Shown: one piece after another, positions 48,272 through 57,923 of the stretch
Layout of the letters: each line of letters starts with the position of its first letter
Numbering within the stretch: the stretch's first letter is position 1
NCBI GenBank assembly: GCA_000196815.1
Contig: FP929003.1
Location: 620,001 to 684,000 of the forward strand
Length of the DNA: 64,000 nucleotides
From: Nitrospira defluvii
GTDB taxonomy: Bacteria; Nitrospirota; Nitrospiria; Nitrospirales; Nitrospiraceae
Direction: 5' to 3'
Translations under genes and position numbers: made by a program
Notes under the pieces: model-generated
The model's database searches: none
What the model saw: the letters and a program-made list of their open reading frames with translations, nothing else
What the model was told of the DNA's origin: nothing

Positions 48272-49162
48272 TCAGTTCTTCCGCGCAGTGATGTAGCGAG
48301 CGATCTCGCGGAGCGGATCGGCCGAGGGCCCGAATGTGTTCAGCCGGCCGATCGCGCGGGTCACGCAGTCGTCCGCCAGCTTGCGCGCGCCTTCGACGCC
48401 ATAAAACGTCGGATAGGTCTTCTTCCCGCGCTCGGCATCAGTATTGGGATTCTTGCCGAGTTCCTCGCGCGTCCCAGTGACATTCAACACATCGTCGGCG
48501 ATCTGGAAGGCCAGTCCGATGTCTTCGGCATAGCCGGTCATGTCATCGAGCTGCCGATCCGTCGCTCCGGCCGCCATCGCGCCCATGCGCACGGCGGCGC
48601 GGATCAACATGCCGGTCTTATGCTTGTGGATGTTCTGGAGCGTGGGGAGATCAATGTCCTGATTCTCGGCCTGAATGTCGAAGACCTGCCCGCCCACCAT
48701 GCCCATGTTCCCCGATCCGTAGGCCAGCTCCTGAAGAATACGCACTTGTCGGGTGGGCTCACAGCCTTTCATGAGCTCGGGCCGGCTGATGAGATCGAAC
48801 GCCATGGTCAGCAGGGCGTCGCCGGCCAGAATCGCCATCGCTTCGCCGTACACTTTGTGGTTGGTCGGTTTGCCCCGGCGAAAGTCGTCGTTGTCCATGG
48901 AGGGCAAGTCGTCGTGAATCAGGGAATAGGTATGGATGAATTCCAGCGAACAGGCCACGGCCATCAGCCCGGGCGGTGTGGCGCCAATCGCTTCGGCTGC
49001 GGCGATGGTGAGGATCGGTCGGACGCGCTTACCGCCTGCCATCAGACTATAGCGCATGCTCTCATGGAGCGTCGTGGGAGGCGTAGCAGTGGGCGGGCTG
49101 ACCTGATCGAGAAAACAGTCCACTGCCAGCCGCTTCTGTTCGAGATAGTCTTTAATGTTCAT
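48272..49162 (-). CDS. Polyprenyl (farnesyl/geranylgeranyl) diphosphate synthase
   Basis: A 296-residue trans-isoprenyl synthase: GGKRVRPILTIAAAEAIG, the first Asp-rich motif in HDDLPSMDNDDFRRGKPTNHKVYGE, GDALLTMAFDLI, QVFDIQAEN, KTGMLIRAAV, and the second Asp motif in FQIADDVLNVTGT followed by GKNPNTDAERGKKTYPTFYG. It joins IPP units to make C15/C20 chains for hopanoids, carotenoids and quinones. ATG 49162 starts the conserved part. Confidence 0.92.
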   Translation of the reverse strand: MNIKDYLEQKRLAVDCFLDQVSPPTATPPTTLHESMRYSLMAGGKRVRPILTIAAAEAIGATPPGLMAVACSLEFIHTYSLIHDDLPSMDNDDFRRGKPTNHKVYGEAMAILAGDALLTMAFDLISRPELMKGCEPTRQVRILQELAYGSGNMGMVGGQVFDIQAENQDIDLPTLQNIHKHKTGMLIRAAVRMGAMAAGATDRQLDDMTGYAEDIGLAFQIADDVLNVTGTREELGKNPNTDAERGKKTYPTFYGVEGARKLADDCVTRAIGRLNTFGPSADPLREIARYITARKN

Positions 49163-50231
49163 GGGTAGATACAGGACATTGGCGATGAGTGGATGGGAAC
49201 CGGCAGAGAGTAACAAAAGGGTGAAAGGGGTGTCAATGAAGAGGGGTGACACCCGCCAGCAGCTCCTCGCTCGCAGAGCGCGCACCAAGAACAATCATGA
49301 GCTGAAATATATGGCAGTGCTCACTCGATGCGCGCGGTAGAGCCCCTTGCAGGTGCCACCCCTACCTGGGAAGGAAACGAGCGAGCTTGGAGGGAACATT
49401 GTAGCTCGCGGCTGGCGCGTCCTCAGAAGGACCTCGCCTGGGTAAATGGCGCGTCTCGACGCGCCAGAGGTGTGGGCGGGTGAAACGTATGCGCGCAATG
49501 GAAGACCGGTGCGGCTCCCCTCGTGAGTCTGGATGCGAGTTAGCTAGAAGGGGATGTCGCGATGCGGCGAGCAGACGGCTTCGGTCTGACGCAGCCTTGC
49601 TTCGCTGCTGTAGTGGGCGGGAGTCCGGCTGCGGATCCCAACAACCTCCACATCAGATGAGGGGGATTCCGTTCTACCCTCGGTGGTCGGCTCATAAATC
49701 AGAACAGTCCCTGCAGAATTGTGGCGTGTGAGGTCACAGTTTGTGACCTCGCACGGATCGGCGCCGGAAAGGTCATAAGGAAATCGTGGCAACCGGTCGT
49801 AAACTGCGACCAGTTCAGGCTCGGTGGTCTGAAACTCTTGCTACGAATGAGGCAAGGAGCGGACCTCGAAGTACCCTCGGATCGTAAGGTGGTCACAAAC
49901 TGTGAGAACCTAGGGTGTCGATCCTCAGCGTCGTCAGGTTCATGGTTCCCCCATCCGTGAAGTGGTGGGTTCACATGATCACCGTGCAAAGTCTGAGTGA
50001 TGAGTCCATTCCATTTGGATAACCGAGCGTACCGCCCGGTCCACTTATTGGGCACAGACCAGGCAAAACCCGCCGTATTTCATCACATCGAACGCGTCTA
50101 TAATATTCGACGACGGCACTCTGCCCTAGGATTCTCAGTCCGATCGAATTCGAACGGATAGACGTTTGACGATACCATTCAATTGCAAATACTTTCTTAT
50201 GCAGCCCTACAGTCGGTGTTGACCTGATCCT
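49163..50231. other. Long gene-poor region at island edge
   Basis: About 1 kb without a supported gene. It holds a 13-bp hairpin, GTGTGAGGTCACA/TGTGACCTCGCAC at 49726-49754, and nearby fragments repeating the theme GGTCACAAACTGTGA (49890s). Some minus-strand stretches (for example RFPYDL..EVTNCDL) vaguely recall ORF6N-type DNA-binding proteins, but they are broken and not convincing. Base composition becomes less GC-rich toward 50,000, marking entry into the accessory island. Confidence 0.4.
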
Positions 50232-51395
50232 CTAGTGCGGTACGTCATCACTGTCATTAATTCTGAAAACTCCCCCCCTAGATCCCACGTAGATGGAATG
50301 AGATGATGGATCAACTCCAAAGCCGTTGAAGTCTCTTGCGAATAAGCCAGTCATGGCATGTTCCAGAGCTCTCCAATTTTCACCCCCGTCTATGCTCTTA
50401 TGGATGCTGTGACCTGTCATCGCATAGATAATGTTTTTATCTTTTGGATGAATAATGAGAGCCTTAACAGGCCCTGTGAAGGCTTTTAAGCTATCAGACC
50501 CAATGGGCTGCCAACTATCTCCTCCATCCGTTGATTTGAAGAAGCCGCTATAAGTCCCCGCGTACACTAGATTTGAATCTATGCGATCAACTGCAAGCGA
50601 TACGGGTTCGGACCCTCGATAGACTTGCTTCCAGTGACCTCCACCATCCGTCGCCTTATAAATGCCCGCCTTAGGTCCTTCGACTTTCGCATATACAATA
50701 TTGTTATTTTGTGGGTCTACAGCCAAGGCATGAGTGGGCTCAGTCAGCCCTGCGTCAATCCAACTATGCCCACCATCAGTCGACTTCGAAACCCCGCGGA
50801 TACTTCCAAGATATAGCGTTTCGGGCGACTGAGAGCCGATAGCAATACTCGTAACAGTAACACTGCTCTTGCCCTCAAACAAAGGCTTCCAACTTGCACC
50901 GCCATCCGTAGTTTTATGCAATCCGCGCGTCGAGACGGCATAGACTATGCTCGAGGTCGCTGGATCTATCGCTAACAATGTCACTCGAGGCGTTTTAGGC
51001 TCTCCCTGGTAAACAACTGAGGGGATCCAACCGTTGATTTCTGTCCACGTTTGTCCGCCATCGTTGCTTTTAAGTATGCCTTGTTCCAAGGTTCCCGCAT
51101 ATATTGTGCCGGGAACAATTGGATCGATTGCCAAAGCCATGGTATTTCGGTCGATACGTTTTGCTGCCGCCTGCTGAGCTGCCCTCTGAGTCGTTCGAGC
51201 TCGTTCAGATTCTTTCTGATCTACAAGTTGTTTGGTTTTTGCATCAATACATTCCTTCATATTCGGGACTCTTAGAGCGCCCATGCAGTGCCGAAATGCC
51301 TCGCCCTGTTCTTTTGAGGTTTGCAACGACTGCTGGCTGCACCCGAACAAGGCCAAACACAAAACCCCAACTACTGTGCGGTTAGTAGAAATCAC
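50232..51395 (-). CDS. Asp-box beta-propeller lipoprotein (sortilin/BNR-like) 1
   Basis: A 387-residue protein with signal and lipobox (VVGVLCLALFGC), a helical stalk with two Cys (FRHCMGALRVPNMKECIDAKTKQ) and an Ala/Gln/Arg coiled stretch. A propeller follows with six Asp-boxes of the S/T-x-D-G-G-x-x-W type (SNDGGQTW, TTDGGASW, STDGGHSW, ATDGGGHW, STDGGDSW, SIDGGENW). Such repeats occur in sialidases, sortilin and photosystem assembly factors; no catalytic sialidase residues are apparent. It is probably a surface or periplasmic binding protein. GTG 51395 follows GGAGG. Codon use is less GC-rich than in neighbours outside the island. Confidence 0.82.
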   Translation of the reverse strand: MISTNRTVVGVLCLALFGCSQQSLQTSKEQGEAFRHCMGALRVPNMKECIDAKTKQLVDQKESERARTTQRAAQQAAAKRIDRNTMALAIDPIVPGTIYAGTLEQGILKSNDGGQTWTEINGWIPSVVYQGEPKTPRVTLLAIDPATSSIVYAVSTRGLHKTTDGGASWKPLFEGKSSVTVTSIAIGSQSPETLYLGSIRGVSKSTDGGHSWIDAGLTEPTHALAVDPQNNNIVYAKVEGPKAGIYKATDGGGHWKQVYRGSEPVSLAVDRIDSNLVYAGTYSGFFKSTDGGDSWQPIGSDSLKAFTGPVKALIIHPKDKNIIYAMTGHSIHKSIDGGENWRALEHAMTGLFARDFNGFGVDPSSHSIYVGSRGGVFRINDSDDVPH

Positions 51396-51714
51396 ATGAC
51401 CTCCGTAACAAATTAAACATCTTTATGCCATGCCTTACGTTGCTGTAACTAATTGCCATAACTGCTGCCGACAGCTTCGGCAGCGCCAAGCTGACACAGC
51501 TTAATTCTCGGGCCTCGATATAGTGAGCCGCCCCCGTCGGTCGTGCACATGGGAAACTGACTTTCTATGGTGAATCTCCATTGCCCACGCAGGCCAATCA
51601 GCATTGATCGCGTACTTCGTCTACTTCAAGGTCATGTTCTCGCCAATGGGTTTGTTCCCGTTGTAAGAGATAAATCGCTTTCGAATCCATTTCAGAGTAC
51701 TGATGATTCACCGT
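51396..51714. other. Intergenic region, nothing recognised
   Basis: About 320 bases between the two propeller genes. It contains only a small hairpin (GCTGCCGA/TCGGCAGC near 51463-51483) without a T-run. No gene or promoter could be supported. Confidence 0.4.
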
Positions 51715-52947
51715 TCACGGAGTTCCTCCACGTGTGGTTTTGTAGAGCCCAAACGTGGTTGCGGCATAGATTGTATTAGGATCAGCAGGATGAATGGCGA
51801 GCATGCGAACCTGATTCACGTCCGCGCGCCTCTCCGCGGGAAACAGCCCTGTACTAGCCTCTGTCCAGTTCTCTCCCGCATCGTTGCTTTTGAAGACGCC
51901 TTTAAATGTTCCAGCGTAGACTGTGTCGGAAGCCACGGGATCGATCGCCAAAGAATATACAGTATTCCCCTTAATCAGCCCTCTATTACTCATGTTCCAC
52001 GTTGCTCCCCCATCTATACTCTTCGAGATGCCGAACAGTCCGGCTGCATACACCGTGCTGGAATTTGTTGGATTAACCGCTAGGGCCTTGATGCCGGGCA
52101 TCATAGGACGATGTAGATCCTCCCAGTGGTCTCCACCGTCTCTGCTTTTCCAGATCCCCAGCGCGTCTGTCCCAAGATATAACGTGGCCGGATTCGAAGG
52201 ATCGGTGGCCAACGCGGATAATCTCACGCTGCCCGGCGGAAGCCCCTTCCGCAGTGCTTTCCAAGTTGTCCCGCCATCGATGCTCTTCATGGCATACCCT
52301 GAAGTTCCCCACAAGAGCGTGTTGAGGTTTAGTGATGTGAACAATAAGCCAGTAGTTTCTTGTGGGAGAGAGTTAGGAAAATTGAGCACCCAAAATTCAG
52401 GATTGTCCCATCGGGCTCGTGCCTGTGTGTCGGCGGGCAACCATGTGATTCCCCCGTCGATACTTTTTATCATCTGCATATAGCGAGTTGTTGCGTAGAT
52501 AGTGTCGGGAGCGACTGGATCGATGGCCAGGAAAGCTAAGTCTGCTCTTGTGTTGGGCGGCAAGGCAGTACTGTGATTAAGCATGCTCCAGCTTTCCCCT
52601 GCATCGATAGACTTATAGAGCCGTGGTGGAAGGGCCGCATACACTATATTAGGGTGAAGGGGATCAATCGCTACGGCCGTGGCACCCCCGGCGGGATCGG
52701 GAGCGTGCATACCAACCGACATTTGCTTCCAGCTGTCGTGTGCTTGAGACTGTTCGCGTTGTTTGCGGGCAGCGATTTTCAGCTTTTCGTCTTCCAGGCA
52801 TTGCTTCATTGAAGCCTGCGAGCGAAATGTGCACGCGTTACGTGCCTCCTTCTCAGCTTTCGTAGCATCGACGAATTGTCCACCACACCCGCCCATTACT
52901 ATTGCGAGCGCACCTATCATGAACATTTTACCGACACATCTAAACAT
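51715..52947 (-). CDS. Asp-box beta-propeller lipoprotein 2
   Basis: A 410-residue paralogue of the 50232 protein: lipobox (LAIVMGGC), the two-Cys stalk (NACTFRSQASMKQCLEDEKLK), a short coiled stretch and a propeller with six Asp-boxes (SIDAGESW, SIDGGITW, SIDGGTTW, SRDGGDHW, SIDGGATW, SNDAGENW). Between boxes the phrase AIDP..P.T(I/V)YA recurs. AGGAGGG precedes the ATG. The two genes probably arose by duplication and then diverged strongly. Confidence 0.82.
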   Translation of the reverse strand: MFRCVGKMFMIGALAIVMGGCGGQFVDATKAEKEARNACTFRSQASMKQCLEDEKLKIAARKQREQSQAHDSWKQMSVGMHAPDPAGGATAVAIDPLHPNIVYAALPPRLYKSIDAGESWSMLNHSTALPPNTRADLAFLAIDPVAPDTIYATTRYMQMIKSIDGGITWLPADTQARARWDNPEFWVLNFPNSLPQETTGLLFTSLNLNTLLWGTSGYAMKSIDGGTTWKALRKGLPPGSVRLSALATDPSNPATLYLGTDALGIWKSRDGGDHWEDLHRPMMPGIKALAVNPTNSSTVYAAGLFGISKSIDGGATWNMSNRGLIKGNTVYSLAIDPVASDTVYAGTFKGVFKSNDAGENWTEASTGLFPAERRADVNQVRMLAIHPADPNTIYAATTFGLYKTTRGGTP

Positions 52948-53160
52948 GCACCGCCCTCCTAGATGGTATGCCCACGTTACTGGAAAGGCGACTTACGGTT
53001 TCGAAACTCAGCTCCGAAGCATCCACACACATACGTGGGTCAGATTATGAAAGCATTCGATGCTCGTTGTCGTTTTGAATGTGTATGCATTGGCAAGGCA
53101 TTATGGCCAACCGAGTAGAGGTAGCAGCAGTCACTGTAATCGCATAGCGTGCAATTAAAG

Positions 53161-53660
53161 CTATCGCACAACTGATGCACCATCCGCTGAGTTAGAAGGT
53201 GCTACCGGCGTTGCAGGTTCTGGGGCACAGTCCTTTGCGACTATAGTATCAATGGAGTCTCGCGCCACATTTCCTTTCACTGTCATTTTCTTTGCATCAT
53301 TGGCCAATTCAACATATTCCCCAGCAGGACCAAGTCCCAATACTCTTCCGACTAAATTGCCACCACCTCTTACAACCGTATGCTCAGCAAATCCCGAAAG
53401 CCATGATTCCTTCTCATTCAGCTCTTTCAGCCTTGCGTGTTTTTGTTCATCTGTCAGGCAAGCTTGATCAGCTTCACGTCTACGGGCCTATTTCCCGAGG
53501 CTTCATGAGAGGAGTGCTTTTGACCGACTTATCCATCTCCTGACGCCCCAGATCCCACGTGAATACAATCTGAGACCATCAGTACCATACATAGAGAGAC
53601 GGTCACCCCCATGGCTGTTCCGGAGAGATTATGGTGCTTGCCAGAGATAGTCGCAGTCAT
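53161..53660 (-). pseudogene. Frameshifted lipoprotein gene related to the propeller stalks
   Basis: From ATG 53660 (AGGAGA site) a signal-like start can be read (GVTVSLCMVLMVSDC), then a stop. A second frame continues (DKSVKSTPLMKPREIGP) and a third carries RRREADQACLTDEQKHARLK, SWLSGFAEHTVVRGG, VLGLGPAGEYVELANDAK and ends at 53161. The Cys-containing READQACLTDEQ part resembles the stalks of the 50232 and 51715 proteins. Two frame changes suggest a decayed gene; sequencing error is the alternative. Confidence 0.6.
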
Positions 53661-54063: not shown

Positions 54064-55992
54064 TTAGTTTACCTGGATCTCCTCCGACTGAATGTCTCTT
54101 GGACCTCGATACGTTATTTTGAAACGATTGTCGCCCAATGGTTTTATATTAAACGTGTGATAATTCACCACGTTTCTGGCGGCTTCGTTCATCAATGCGG
54201 GTGCTGCTTGCGACGAAAGCTGTTCCATTGAATTGTCCGTAGTAGTTTCGTAGCCGTATTGGTCTCTCCAAACGGTAACCTTTTTCTCAGGCATCTCAAT
54301 GTGAAAATTGGGATTGTCAAACCCGCCTTTGGCGCGACAGACAAACGCATAGGTCAACGAGACCACGTCTTCAGCCGTCACTTTGCTGATCGTGAACTCC
54401 CCTCGGTCCGGACGAATCCCAGTCAGATCGTTCATCGTCTCAGCCCCAGCTTTGTTCTGGAGATAGGCCTGCGTAAGAAGGCGTTGAACCACTTCTCTCA
54501 CTTGCGCGGACGCGCATACGCGCGCAGCGCGTTGGCGAGTGGTCTTTGCCGCGCTGCTCCACTGCTTGGCTTTCTCCGGGTCTCTCTTTGTTCCTTGACC
54601 CTTCTCGTACATGCGCCCTAACGCGGCTTGCGCCCTTGCATCCTCGTAGGCGGTGGTCGCTGCTAAGTAATACTGCACGGCCTGGGCATAGGCATTCGGG
54701 TCCGTGGCGCCGCGCTGTTCGTAGCGAGATCCAAGGTAATACGGTGCGTCAATACTGCCATGTGCCTCCGCGACCTTGAGCCAATAGACTGAATAAAGTT
54801 TGGATCGAGGAGCCATTTGGGGGTTGGAGAAGAAGAGCGCAACCTGGGCCGTTATCTTGGGAAACGCAGTCAATTTCGTCCCATTCTTGCTCGTGAGCCG
54901 AACATCGTCGCACCCCGCAGCCTCAATTTCCTCCATGCCTTCAATCATTCCTTCCAATCCACTGTCCGCATCGTCTCTAAACAGCGAAATGATGGTGTTT
55001 CTGTAACGGGGATTAGGCCCTTCGCTTGACGCCGCGAGATTTACGACGCCATTTACTCGTGAAATGGCTCCTACCAAGGCAATCTCGGGGGAAGTCTGTG
55101 CATTGCGAGAGACCTTCAAGACCCCCTTTATTAAGTACATCGGGTCATTCTGCTCAGCGCGACTATGGAGAAAGACATCGGTGATCCTCAGGTTAATATT
55201 CACGGTGTTGCCGCAAGCCTGTCCCTCGAGCGTGTCGCCCATGAGTGTCTTGGCAGCCACATCTTTTGTCGTCGTTTGCACAGTAGCGAATTCATCTAGC
55301 GTAGATATCGGCTTCCACCGCGATAAGGTCGGACGGCTCTGATTGGCCGCCCCAAACGACGCGAAACGAGTCGAGGCTAATGGGTGACCTGGGAAACAAA
55401 CGTCTTGTAGCGCCTCCATCTCAGGTTGGCCATCTTCGGTCAGGAGAAATTTCCCGTTGTGCGAGTAAAGGTATGTGCCATACGTCGCTTCCCGGTCTAA
55501 GACCGTATCCACAATTCGTTCCCATGACACACGATATGGATATTTCTCATCGGAATACCAATGGCCGACCACAACACCGCATTTTGTTTGTGGGTCTCCG
55601 ACGAATCCGGGGACATCAGTCACCCAATAGGGGTTTAAGGACGACTTCGGATCCAGGGACTGCATGGTGTCCCTGATTTTATAGATTGTAGTCGTCACAT
55701 CATTCCGGGCGAGAAAAACCACAAGCACAATATCGTTTCGTGAGCCGAGGTCCTTCATCGCTCGCTCCGTGAGTTCTGGAACACTGCTCGCAAGAATCTC
55801 GTTTGGTCGGGAGGGCTGATTAGGCTGAGCAGTCCATGCCCGTAGCATTTCGGCCTTTTGTTCTCCAGTTAGTTGCCGATTTGAGTCTTTATGCAGAAGG
55901 ACAGAGCATCCACCACCGGAAATTACGAGGAGAGCTATGATCCAGAAGGAGAGTAGGGACTCAAGGATACTGTATCTGCTTATATCTTGCAT
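54064..55992 (-). CDS. Large lipoprotein with Sel1-like repeats
   Basis: A 642-residue protein: signal and lipobox-like FWIIALLVISGGGC and a long N-terminal region without known domain. A Sel1/TPR-like part lies around residues 410-490 (APYYLGSRYEQRGATDPNAYAQAVQYYLAATTAYEDARAQAALGRMYEKGQGTKRDPEKAKQWSS in pattern form). A C-terminal unknown domain ends FKITYRGPRDIQSEEIQVN. Sel1 repeats mediate protein contacts. It belongs to the same less GC-rich island as the propeller lipoproteins and may act with them. AAAGGGTGAG precedes the ATG. Confidence 0.7.
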   Translation of the reverse strand: MQDISRYSILESLLSFWIIALLVISGGGCSVLLHKDSNRQLTGEQKAEMLRAWTAQPNQPSRPNEILASSVPELTERAMKDLGSRNDIVLVVFLARNDVTTTIYKIRDTMQSLDPKSSLNPYWVTDVPGFVGDPQTKCGVVVGHWYSDEKYPYRVSWERIVDTVLDREATYGTYLYSHNGKFLLTEDGQPEMEALQDVCFPGHPLASTRFASFGAANQSRPTLSRWKPISTLDEFATVQTTTKDVAAKTLMGDTLEGQACGNTVNINLRITDVFLHSRAEQNDPMYLIKGVLKVSRNAQTSPEIALVGAISRVNGVVNLAASSEGPNPRYRNTIISLFRDDADSGLEGMIEGMEEIEAAGCDDVRLTSKNGTKLTAFPKITAQVALFFSNPQMAPRSKLYSVYWLKVAEAHGSIDAPYYLGSRYEQRGATDPNAYAQAVQYYLAATTAYEDARAQAALGRMYEKGQGTKRDPEKAKQWSSAAKTTRQRAARVCASAQVREVVQRLLTQAYLQNKAGAETMNDLTGIRPDRGEFTISKVTAEDVVSLTYAFVCRAKGGFDNPNFHIEMPEKKVTVWRDQYGYETTTDNSMEQLSSQAAPALMNEAARNVVNYHTFNIKPLGDNRFKITYRGPRDIQSEEIQVN

Positions 55993-56492: not shown

Positions 56493-57050
56493 ATGACACG
56501 GTCGTTGTGGCGATCTCTGTGGTTCGAAGGTAAATCCTGCAACAGAGCTCTCACGGCATCGACTCCCAATGGTTGTTCAATACCTTTCAGACGAAGAGGA
56601 GCGCACGATCAACTTAAGACCATGGGCTATGAGCCGAGCCGCGTGTATGAGGGCGGCTTTCAGTTTCAGAAACATTACTTCGGAGCCAAGCCTGGTGAGT
56701 TGACGGAAAAGACGGCCGAAGGGCGGATCACAGAAGAGTTTCACTGTGCACAGTTTCTCGATGGTTTGGCTCAAGTCCAGTTCTGGGTCAGGAATCTTCC
56801 ACGCAAGTCCACATCATTCCGGCTCCAGACATCCAAGGATTGGTTCTATCCGGATTTTCTCTGCCAGTTGATGGACGGACGGTCGTTAGCGGTTGAGTAT
56901 AAAGGGAAACATCTCTTTGACGGGGTCGATGCCGAGGAGAAGCGTGCGGTCGGCGAGGTCTGGGCTACTCGAAGCAAGGGGCGCTGCCTGTTCGTGATGC
57001 CGACGGACGGCGATTTTTCAAGAGTCATGAGCGTTCTTGAGCGAGGATGA
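56493..57050 (+). pseudogene. C-terminal remnant of a type III restriction/helicase-like subunit
   Basis: The readable part (about residues 55-185) has VYEGGFQFQKHYFG, WVRNLPRKSTSFRLQTSKDWFYPDFLCQLMDG, AVEYKGKHLFDGVDAEEKRAVGEVWA and GRCLFVMPTDGDF. This is the nuclease-like end of DEAD/type III restriction (Res) proteins, with the PD...E-x-K pattern PDF..VEYKG. The helicase part, which should make up most of a protein of about 900 residues, is absent, and the first 50 codons do not match. No Mod methylase gene is present. Confidence 0.7.
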
Positions 57051-57155
57051 GTCATAACTCGCCTGACGTCGTTGCTCCTGAACCTTATCGCATAGATGAG
57101 TCTGGCACCGTAGATCGTTATTTCAACCGCTAGTACTCTGTAGGGTAGGGTTCTA

Positions 57156-57356
57156 GCAGGATGCGGAAAAAGTCCGCCAGCGGCGTTCTCGCATCGCTCA
57201 GAGGCTCACCGTACGGCACGAGTACGATTCGCCTCTTCGTTCGCTGCGGCCTTGCTGGACGGCCTTTTTGCGCATCCTGCGGGCGATTCTGACGCGAGAC
57301 AGCCCGTGTGCGAAATGCGACGTATGACGCAATCGTCGAGTTTTTCCGCAGCCTGC
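57156..57356 (+). mobile_element. 201-bp non-autonomous TIR element, copy 4
   Basis: Flanked by TA (57154-57155 and 57357-57358). TIRs GCAGGATGCGGAAAAA and GCAGGCTGCGGAAAAA (inverse at the right end). It has the same length as copies 1 and 2; the right third differs in sequence while the left two thirds match. Non-coding. Confidence 0.8.
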
Positions 57357-57453
57357 TAGGCGCCGTCCTCAGGAGGTCGGCAAGTCTGTTGCCTTGGATT
57401 GACGCGAGTCAGCAAGAGGCATAGAGTAAGTCTCACACTGAGGCGTGCGGACC

Positions 57454-57639
57454 GTGGGTATTCAGACTGCCAAACAAAAGATCCTTGAGGCTGTTGAGCG
57501 GTTGCCAGACAATGCGACGCTCGAAGATGCCATTGAACGACTCTGCTTTCTCGCGAAGGTGGAGGAAGGGCTCCGTCAATCTCATGCCGGCGGCGAGATG
57601 ATCCCCCACCAGGATGCCGTTCGCCAACTGCTCGGATGA
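57454..57639 (+). CDS. Antitoxin-like small protein of a ParE-type pair
   Basis: A 61-residue acidic/helical protein (ILEAVERLPDNATLEDAIERLCFLAKVEEGLRQ, MIPHQDAVRQLLG). This pattern is common in antitoxins preceding RelE/ParE toxins. GTG 57454 has a GAGG site 10 nt before; GTG 57445 is an alternative. The stop overlaps the toxin start (ATGA). Confidence 0.75.
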   Translation: MGIQTAKQKILEAVERLPDNATLEDAIERLCFLAKVEEGLRQSHAGGEMIPHQDAVRQLLG

Positions 57640-57923
57640 CCCTCCTTTGGACACGTCGGGCCATCGCTGACGTTCAGGCGATCAAACAATTCATTGCTAA
57701 AGATTCACCGCATGCCGCTCAATTGGTGACGCAACGACTCGTGGCTGTGGTGGACCGCTTGATCTTGTTTCCTCAGTCGGGGAGGATTGTGCCTGAACTT
57801 GCCGATCCACAGATCCGTGAAGTCGTTCAAGGCTCGTATCGCATTGTCTATCGTTTGATCGAGAAGCAAGTGCATGTTTTGACTGTGCACCATGCGGCTC
57901 GCCTGTTTCCTATTGGGCAATAG
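57636..57923 (+). CDS. ParE/RelE-family toxin
   Basis: A 95-residue protein with the ParE pattern: WTRRAIADVQAIKQFIAKDSPHAAQLVTQRL, LILFPQSGRIVPELADPQIREVVQGSYRIVYRL and VHVLTVHHAARLFP. ParE toxins poison gyrase; RelE relatives cut mRNA. The ...QGSYRIVYRL... type is closer to ParE. Translationally coupled to its antitoxin. Confidence 0.85.
   Translation: MTLLWTRRAIADVQAIKQFIAKDSPHAAQLVTQRLVAVVDRLILFPQSGRIVPELADPQIREVVQGSYRIVYRLIEKQVHVLTVHHAARLFPIGQ

Follow-up and report, generated by a model that had tools for sequence, protein, structure and literature searches.

A strain-specific cassette within a former restriction-modification locus of Nitrospira defluvii encodes two, rather than three, predicted lipoproteins with a stalked Asp-box propeller

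Asp-box propeller lipoproteins are widespread and mostly have no known function. Passages of PMC9218822 count Asp-box propellers among the three large groups of propellers and note that each group includes highly symmetrical members that were newly amplified. The cyanobacterial protein Ycf48 is presented in sections of PMC8038367 as a lipidated assembly factor, not an adhesin, and the same sections state that seven-bladed propellers of its family often mediate protein-protein contacts. We analysed a stretch of 64,000 nucleotides (the window) of the N. defluvii genome, which is a single contig of 4,317,083 bases. The original prediction for this DNA held that two intact genes, here called A and B, and one broken gene share an acylated N terminus and a two-Cys stalk, that an Asp-box propeller follows the stalk in the intact proteins, and that all lie in a less GC-rich island with a Sel1-type lipoprotein. 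A search of the open-licence PMC literature found no description of a lipoprotein system of this kind in Nitrospira. Our analysis indicates that only two of the three genes encode stalked propeller lipoproteins, that their cassette is strain-specific and lies within a former restriction-modification locus, and that proteins of this general type are very common, A and B being a variation on it.

A and B are present at the positions and on the strand that had been predicted (Table 1). A GGAGG-like sequence precedes the start codon of each gene, and a scan for promoters and terminators found no more sites than in shuffled sequences. Read from the sequence, both proteins begin with a signal peptide that ends in a Cys in a lipobox-like context (...LALFG-C19 in A and ...AIVMGG-C21 in B). 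Bacterial lipoproteins have Gly, Ala or Ser before this Cys, as do A (LFG-C) and B (MGG-C), and both are predicted to be lipidated, with residues other than the commonest ones at -2 and -3. The only Cys residues of the mature proteins are 19, 37 and 49 in A and 21, 39 and 50 in B, the propellers being Cys-free. The first stalk Cys lies 18 residues from the lipobox Cys in both proteins, and the second follows it after 12 residues in A and 11 in B. The MK(E/Q)C motif and the second Cys were found, as claimed, within the N-terminal 70 residues of both proteins, with the Asp-box propeller after the stalk.

Table 1. Features in and around the cassette, in window coordinates
Feature	Position	Strand	Remarks
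Left remnant of older locus	49126-49667		compared with sequence beside the restriction-modification locus of genome G006: 91% (49126-49394), 79% (49536-49667)
Gene A	50232-51395	-	387 aa, GTG start; predicted lipoprotein; hairpin stalk with two Cys, then Asp-box propeller of seven blades
A propeller	50256-51146	-	modelled with seven blades; Asp-boxes in strict form: five
A lipobox Cys19 and stalk	51147-51341	-	residues 19-83; model helices 18-39 and 46-77; Cys37, Cys49
Gene B	51715-52947	-	410 aa; predicted lipoprotein; hairpin stalk with two Cys, then Asp-box propeller of seven blades
B propeller	51724-52686	-	modelled with seven blades; Asp-boxes in strict form: six
B lipobox Cys21 and stalk	52735-52887	-	residues 21-71; model helices 30-38 and 44-69; Cys39, Cys50
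Broken gene	53164-53660	-	of a separate small-lipoprotein family; stop after 43 codons, then frame change into an open piece of 108 codons
Sel1-repeat lipoprotein	54064-55992	-	642 aa; no match to N-terminal 434 aa in 294 other phylum genomes
Right remnant of older locus	56610-57041	+	C-terminal 144 residues of a type III restriction enzyme; 87% identity with the enzyme of G006 (892 aa)
Dispersed repeat	57140-57375		47 matching pieces in own genome
ParE-family toxin	57636-57923	+	PF05016, 61.7 bits

Structure prediction had been proposed as a check on this architecture, and the models of both proteins, built from alignments of 11 and 9 sequences, show a helical two-Cys hairpin followed by a seven-bladed propeller, with mean pLDDT values of 81.8 for A and 79.8 for B. 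In each predicted hairpin a helix is followed by a turn and a longer helix, and one Cys ends the first helix while the other lies near the start of the second. Confidence in the stalk was good in A (blocks of 81-92 over residues 21-70) and fair in B (79-85 for residues 31-60), and it was low at the end of the B stalk and in the linker (59-66 over residues 61-90). The propellers are predicted to be toroids of four-stranded blades, seven in both models by strand order, and the motif S-x-D-x-G-x-x-W, which in this superfamily is repeated blade by blade, is present in strict form five times in A and six times in B. Pfam BNR and Sortilin-Vps10 were above their cut-offs in both proteins (for BNR, PF02012, 29.0 bits in A and 34.9 in B, cut-off 27). 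The fold comparison covered the propeller of B, and many PDB propellers aligned to it over approximately 280-295 residues with Z values of about 29-31 and rmsd of 2.5-3.2; GH74 enzymes, 3b7f and the YCF48 structure 5oj3 were among the matches, and families beyond those listed may match as well. In PHROGs both propellers matched only phrog_8700, a family without an assigned function, and neither A nor B nor the Sel1 protein matched a defence model in PADLOC.

The similarity between the two stalks is modest, yet it is collinear from the lipobox onward. Thirteen of 62 columns are identical in a MAFFT alignment, and the local alignment score was 50 when the lipobox Cys was included (8 of 5,000 shuffles of B did as well) and 43 when it was left out (68 of 10,000 shuffles, or 162 of 20,000 in another run). 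Searching genomes for the stalk motif had also been suggested. A profile of the two stalks matched A and B alone in the whole of their own genome at E up to 0.05, and among the 29 genus genomes no relative outside this genome scored below E 0.09. The 395 phylum genomes contained no convincing relative, only three weak partial matches (E 0.0076, 0.040 and 0.043); the one inspected has a single ORF of at least 200 aa in its 3 kb locus, which we take to resemble an outer-membrane efflux protein. Among viral contigs, none of 39 pattern matches to the stalk was confirmed and full-length A was not found, and the isolated stalks came close to no Pfam cut-off. Since these searches gave no convincing stalk relative outside the genome of origin, the Cys pair is without support from cross-species conservation.

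The propeller part of these proteins is, in contrast, ordinary. When B was used as a query, all 29 genus genomes had a match at E up to 1e-20, and 26 of the 29 matched A; the listed genus matches other than A and B themselves span the propeller only. Against genome contigs, B aligned at 27 loci with 24-34% identity, always from query residue 65 or later, which is the propeller part, and 103 plasmid records had a match, all below 60% identity. Four further sites in the genome of A and B encode propellers (at 460 kb, 713 kb, 1.588 Mb and 3.476 Mb), and those at 460 kb and 713 kb are lipoprotein-like, with the propeller straight after the lipobox. Asp-box propeller lipoproteins are common in the genus, and the stalk is what distinguishes A and B. 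BLAST gave 139 bits between A and B, over a stretch that includes the stalk, compared with 134 (A) and 138 (B) bits to the propeller lipoprotein carried by a mobile-element-like locus in genome G015, described below, and no pair of A and B blades stood out in a blade-by-blade comparison. A recent tandem duplication was considered and rejected, given that the A-B propeller distance is about the same as that to other genus propellers. Because the propellers of A and B resemble each other no more than they resemble others in the genus, the pair is linked mainly through a 60-residue stalk of modest significance.

The broken gene did not prove to be a third member. Its first frame, 43 codons from 53660, has signal-peptide character, and the second (53487-53164) lacks a usual start. 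The acylated N terminus ascribed to all three genes is predicted in A and B, but the lipobox-like Cys of the broken gene follows Asp (VSDC), a residue that the lipobox disallows and that is not Gly, Ala or Ser. The MK(E/Q)C motif is absent from it. Its Cys piece scored 22 against the A stalk, a value equalled by 3611 of 5000 shuffles (3991 of 5000 with a slightly different stalk piece), and 30 against the B stalk, equalled by 483 of 5000 (596 of 5000 likewise). We therefore rejected the broken gene as a stalk protein, as it has no motif, shows chance-level similarity and was missed by the stalk profile. The shared stalk stood for A and B (the 68 of 10,000 shuffles above), and for lack of similarity in the broken gene it is common to two proteins, not three.

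Relatives of the broken gene were found elsewhere. In 295 phylum genomes three besides its own had a match at E up to 0.01, namely G186 (61% over 55 residues), G287 (64% over 28 residues) and, weakly, G183; relatives of the family occur in a sister genus. The G287 ORF has a good lipobox (IAG-C), and a CLTDEQK segment is common to it and the broken gene (score 57, reached by 0 of 10,000 shuffles). It has no similarity to the stalks, since 4494 of 10,000 shuffles did as well against A and 892 of 10,000 against B. On the grounds of these relatives and the absence of stalk likeness, the broken gene belongs to another, separate small-lipoprotein family and appears to be decaying in the source genome. 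The family pattern CLTDEQK ... KKxTVKGxxxRDxIDTIxxKDC can be followed in G287 (L153:7032-7319), G186 (L152:9716-9976) and the window. Both the window copy and the G287 copy seem to have an interrupted reading frame, as the G186 copy possibly does too, which may reflect either repeated decay or some unrecognised decoding.

A and B do lie, as proposed, in a less GC-rich island with the Sel1 protein. The GC content of the island is 0.51 versus 0.595 across the window, and it drops from about 0.60 to 0.49-0.53 between approximately 50 and 57 kb. Third-position GC is 0.75-0.80 in ispA, hpnA and the carotenoid-synthesis-like genes and 0.46-0.57 in A, B and the Sel1 gene. The Sel1 protein matches other proteins through its repeat part only, its N-terminal 434 residues having no match in 294 other phylum genomes, and the gene was not found elsewhere in the genus. 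No integrase was found among the cassette ORFs. A perfect 15-base inverted repeat (49734-49748 and 49891-49905) lies near the left edge of the cassette. On the other side, the dispersed repeat in Table 1 is intergenic and MITE-like in appearance, with best copies 95-100% identical over about 207 bases, and a 64-aa ORF of no known family (57445-57639) lies upstream of the ParE-family toxin gene in the antitoxin position.

The gene ispA is present in 28 of the 29 genus genomes (E up to 1e-80), and the site beside it was compared in five of these 28. In G015, G004 and G012 the next conserved gene lies no more than a few hundred bases away on this side of ispA, against 8.7 kb in the window. G006 and G002, unlike those three genomes, have a type III restriction-modification locus at this site (L141, 1108-6867, and L144, 4833-9780, respectively), with a restriction enzyme of 892 or 893 aa, an ORF that we read as a DNA methyltransferase, and two small preceding ORFs, presumably a nucleotidyltransferase/HEPN pair. 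The window retains sequence from both ends of such a locus (Table 1), and its enzyme fragment matches PADLOC REase_III at 1.6e-29. With both ends kept and lipoprotein genes filling the gap, the cassette (about 49.7-56.6 kb) occupies the place of the defence locus. The site beside ispA is variable in the genus, and A and B, being inside a low-GC, foreign-looking cassette at a variable chromosomal site, are regarded as accessory cargo. In G015 (L105, 282-8813) genes for a propeller lipoprotein and a MORN lipoprotein come after those for a Phage_integrase and a Rep_trans-type replication initiator, possibly a mobile element with envelope cargo; in G186 a Sel1 protein and a ParD-like antitoxin are encoded close to a copy of the small-lipoprotein family. 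Carriage of lipoproteins as accessory cargo may therefore recur in the bacterial family, these three cases being an observation and not a statistic.

What A and B do can be approached from their build. We consider it somewhat probable that they are diverged relatives in which a lipid anchor, a disulfide-stapled hairpin spacer and a non-catalytic docking propeller act at the outer membrane as accessory cargo. Each would consist of a lipid anchor, a short helical hairpin and a seven-bladed Asp-box propeller. A disulfide (37-49 in A, 39-50 in B) probably staples the hairpin, which would be a stiff spacer keeping the propeller off the outer membrane, and a protein or glycan partner would dock on a non-catalytic face of the Cys-free propeller; we infer binding over catalysis. 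Lipidation and outer-membrane sorting are also predicted, and Ser/Gly follows the lipobox Cys, which is the outer-membrane sorting rule of E. coli. The top Foldseek rows for B were GH74 enzymes, and the best NCBIfam match was NF045728 (F510_1955 glycosylhydrolase; 142.4 bits for A and 123.9 for B), which would suit glycoside hydrolases related to either family. Both scores, however, are below the cut-off of 175 and the likeness is that of the repeat, the RIP-type sialidase motif is absent from both propellers, and A and B each have a single seven-bladed propeller, whereas the matched GH74 chains are about twice as long (685-778 residues); we find catalysis of this sort distinctly improbable.

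A surface recognition or adhesion system, as originally envisaged, would have the stalk present the propeller outside the cell to neighbours, matrix or glycans. The lipid anchor, the spacer and a fold common among carbohydrate-active enzymes agree with such exposure, and strain-specific presence at a variable site fits variable surface traits. It nevertheless seems rather unlikely, as the stalkless propeller lipoproteins found genus-wide suit a housekeeping envelope role equally, lipoproteins predicted to reside in the outer membrane may point into the periplasm, and Ycf48, which among characterised proteins is the closest lipidated propeller with seven blades, acts in assembly according to the cited sections (PMC8038367). 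Whether A and B are themselves Ycf48-like, with the propeller holding a membrane or periplasmic complex during its maturation while the lipid tethers the protein to the membrane, is quite doubtful. Such a role is favoured by the PSII_BNR score of A (33.9, cut-off 27), by the YCF48 structures among the Foldseek rows, and by the lipidation and seven-bladed family described for cyanobacterial Ycf48 in parts of PMC8038367, but B falls below the PSII_BNR cut-off (25.9), the full-length Ycf48 model NF010237 gave 42.2 for A and 32.5 for B against a cut-off of 326, and accessory island genes are unlikely to be needed for core assembly. The envelope lipoprotein set of the cassette consists of the two stalked propellers, the Sel1 lipoprotein and the decaying small lipoprotein; that it replaced the restriction-modification system as an alternative occupant of a defence site and acts on the outside of the cell rather than on DNA, perhaps by binding the receptors used by phages or in conjugation or by masking them, is a very improbable reading.

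If A and B are docking lipoproteins as we favour, a two-Cys stalk shared by diverged propellers would show one anchoring module presenting different binding rings. Their position inside restriction-modification remnants points to possible competition between defence systems and sets of envelope lipoproteins for the same chromosomal slots. The closest comparisons within the genus are the stalkless lipoproteins at 460 kb (L101) and 713 kb (L102) of the same genome and in G003 (L106), which have the same lipobox-like N terminus, an Asp-box propeller and a similar length; unlike in A and B, the propeller begins no more than about 10 residues past the lipobox Cys and there is no two-Cys stalk. The G015 propeller lipoprotein (L105:5211-6443) resembles A and B in being accessory and in adjoining another large lipoprotein, in that case with MORN repeats, but it lies at a different site and its linker of about 35 residues lacks the two Cys. 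Vps10/Sortilin-type and GH74 propellers share the Asp-box repeat and the fold with A and B. Vps10 is ten-bladed and GH74 enzymes are double-propeller proteins, and we know of none of either type built from a lipid anchor and a stalk. Given that newly amplified propellers are found in all large groups, as PMC9218822 states in part, divergent rings on one stalk would be unsurprising. Ycf48/HCF136 (PF14870) differs from A and B in having photosystem II as its client, in the Ycf48 cut-off that A and B miss, and in a stalk hairpin that goes unmentioned in the sections cited; like them, it belongs to the Asp-box group and has seven blades, the Synechocystis form being lipidated, and as portrayed in those sections (PMC8038367) the Synechocystis protein has the closest build to A and B among characterised proteins.
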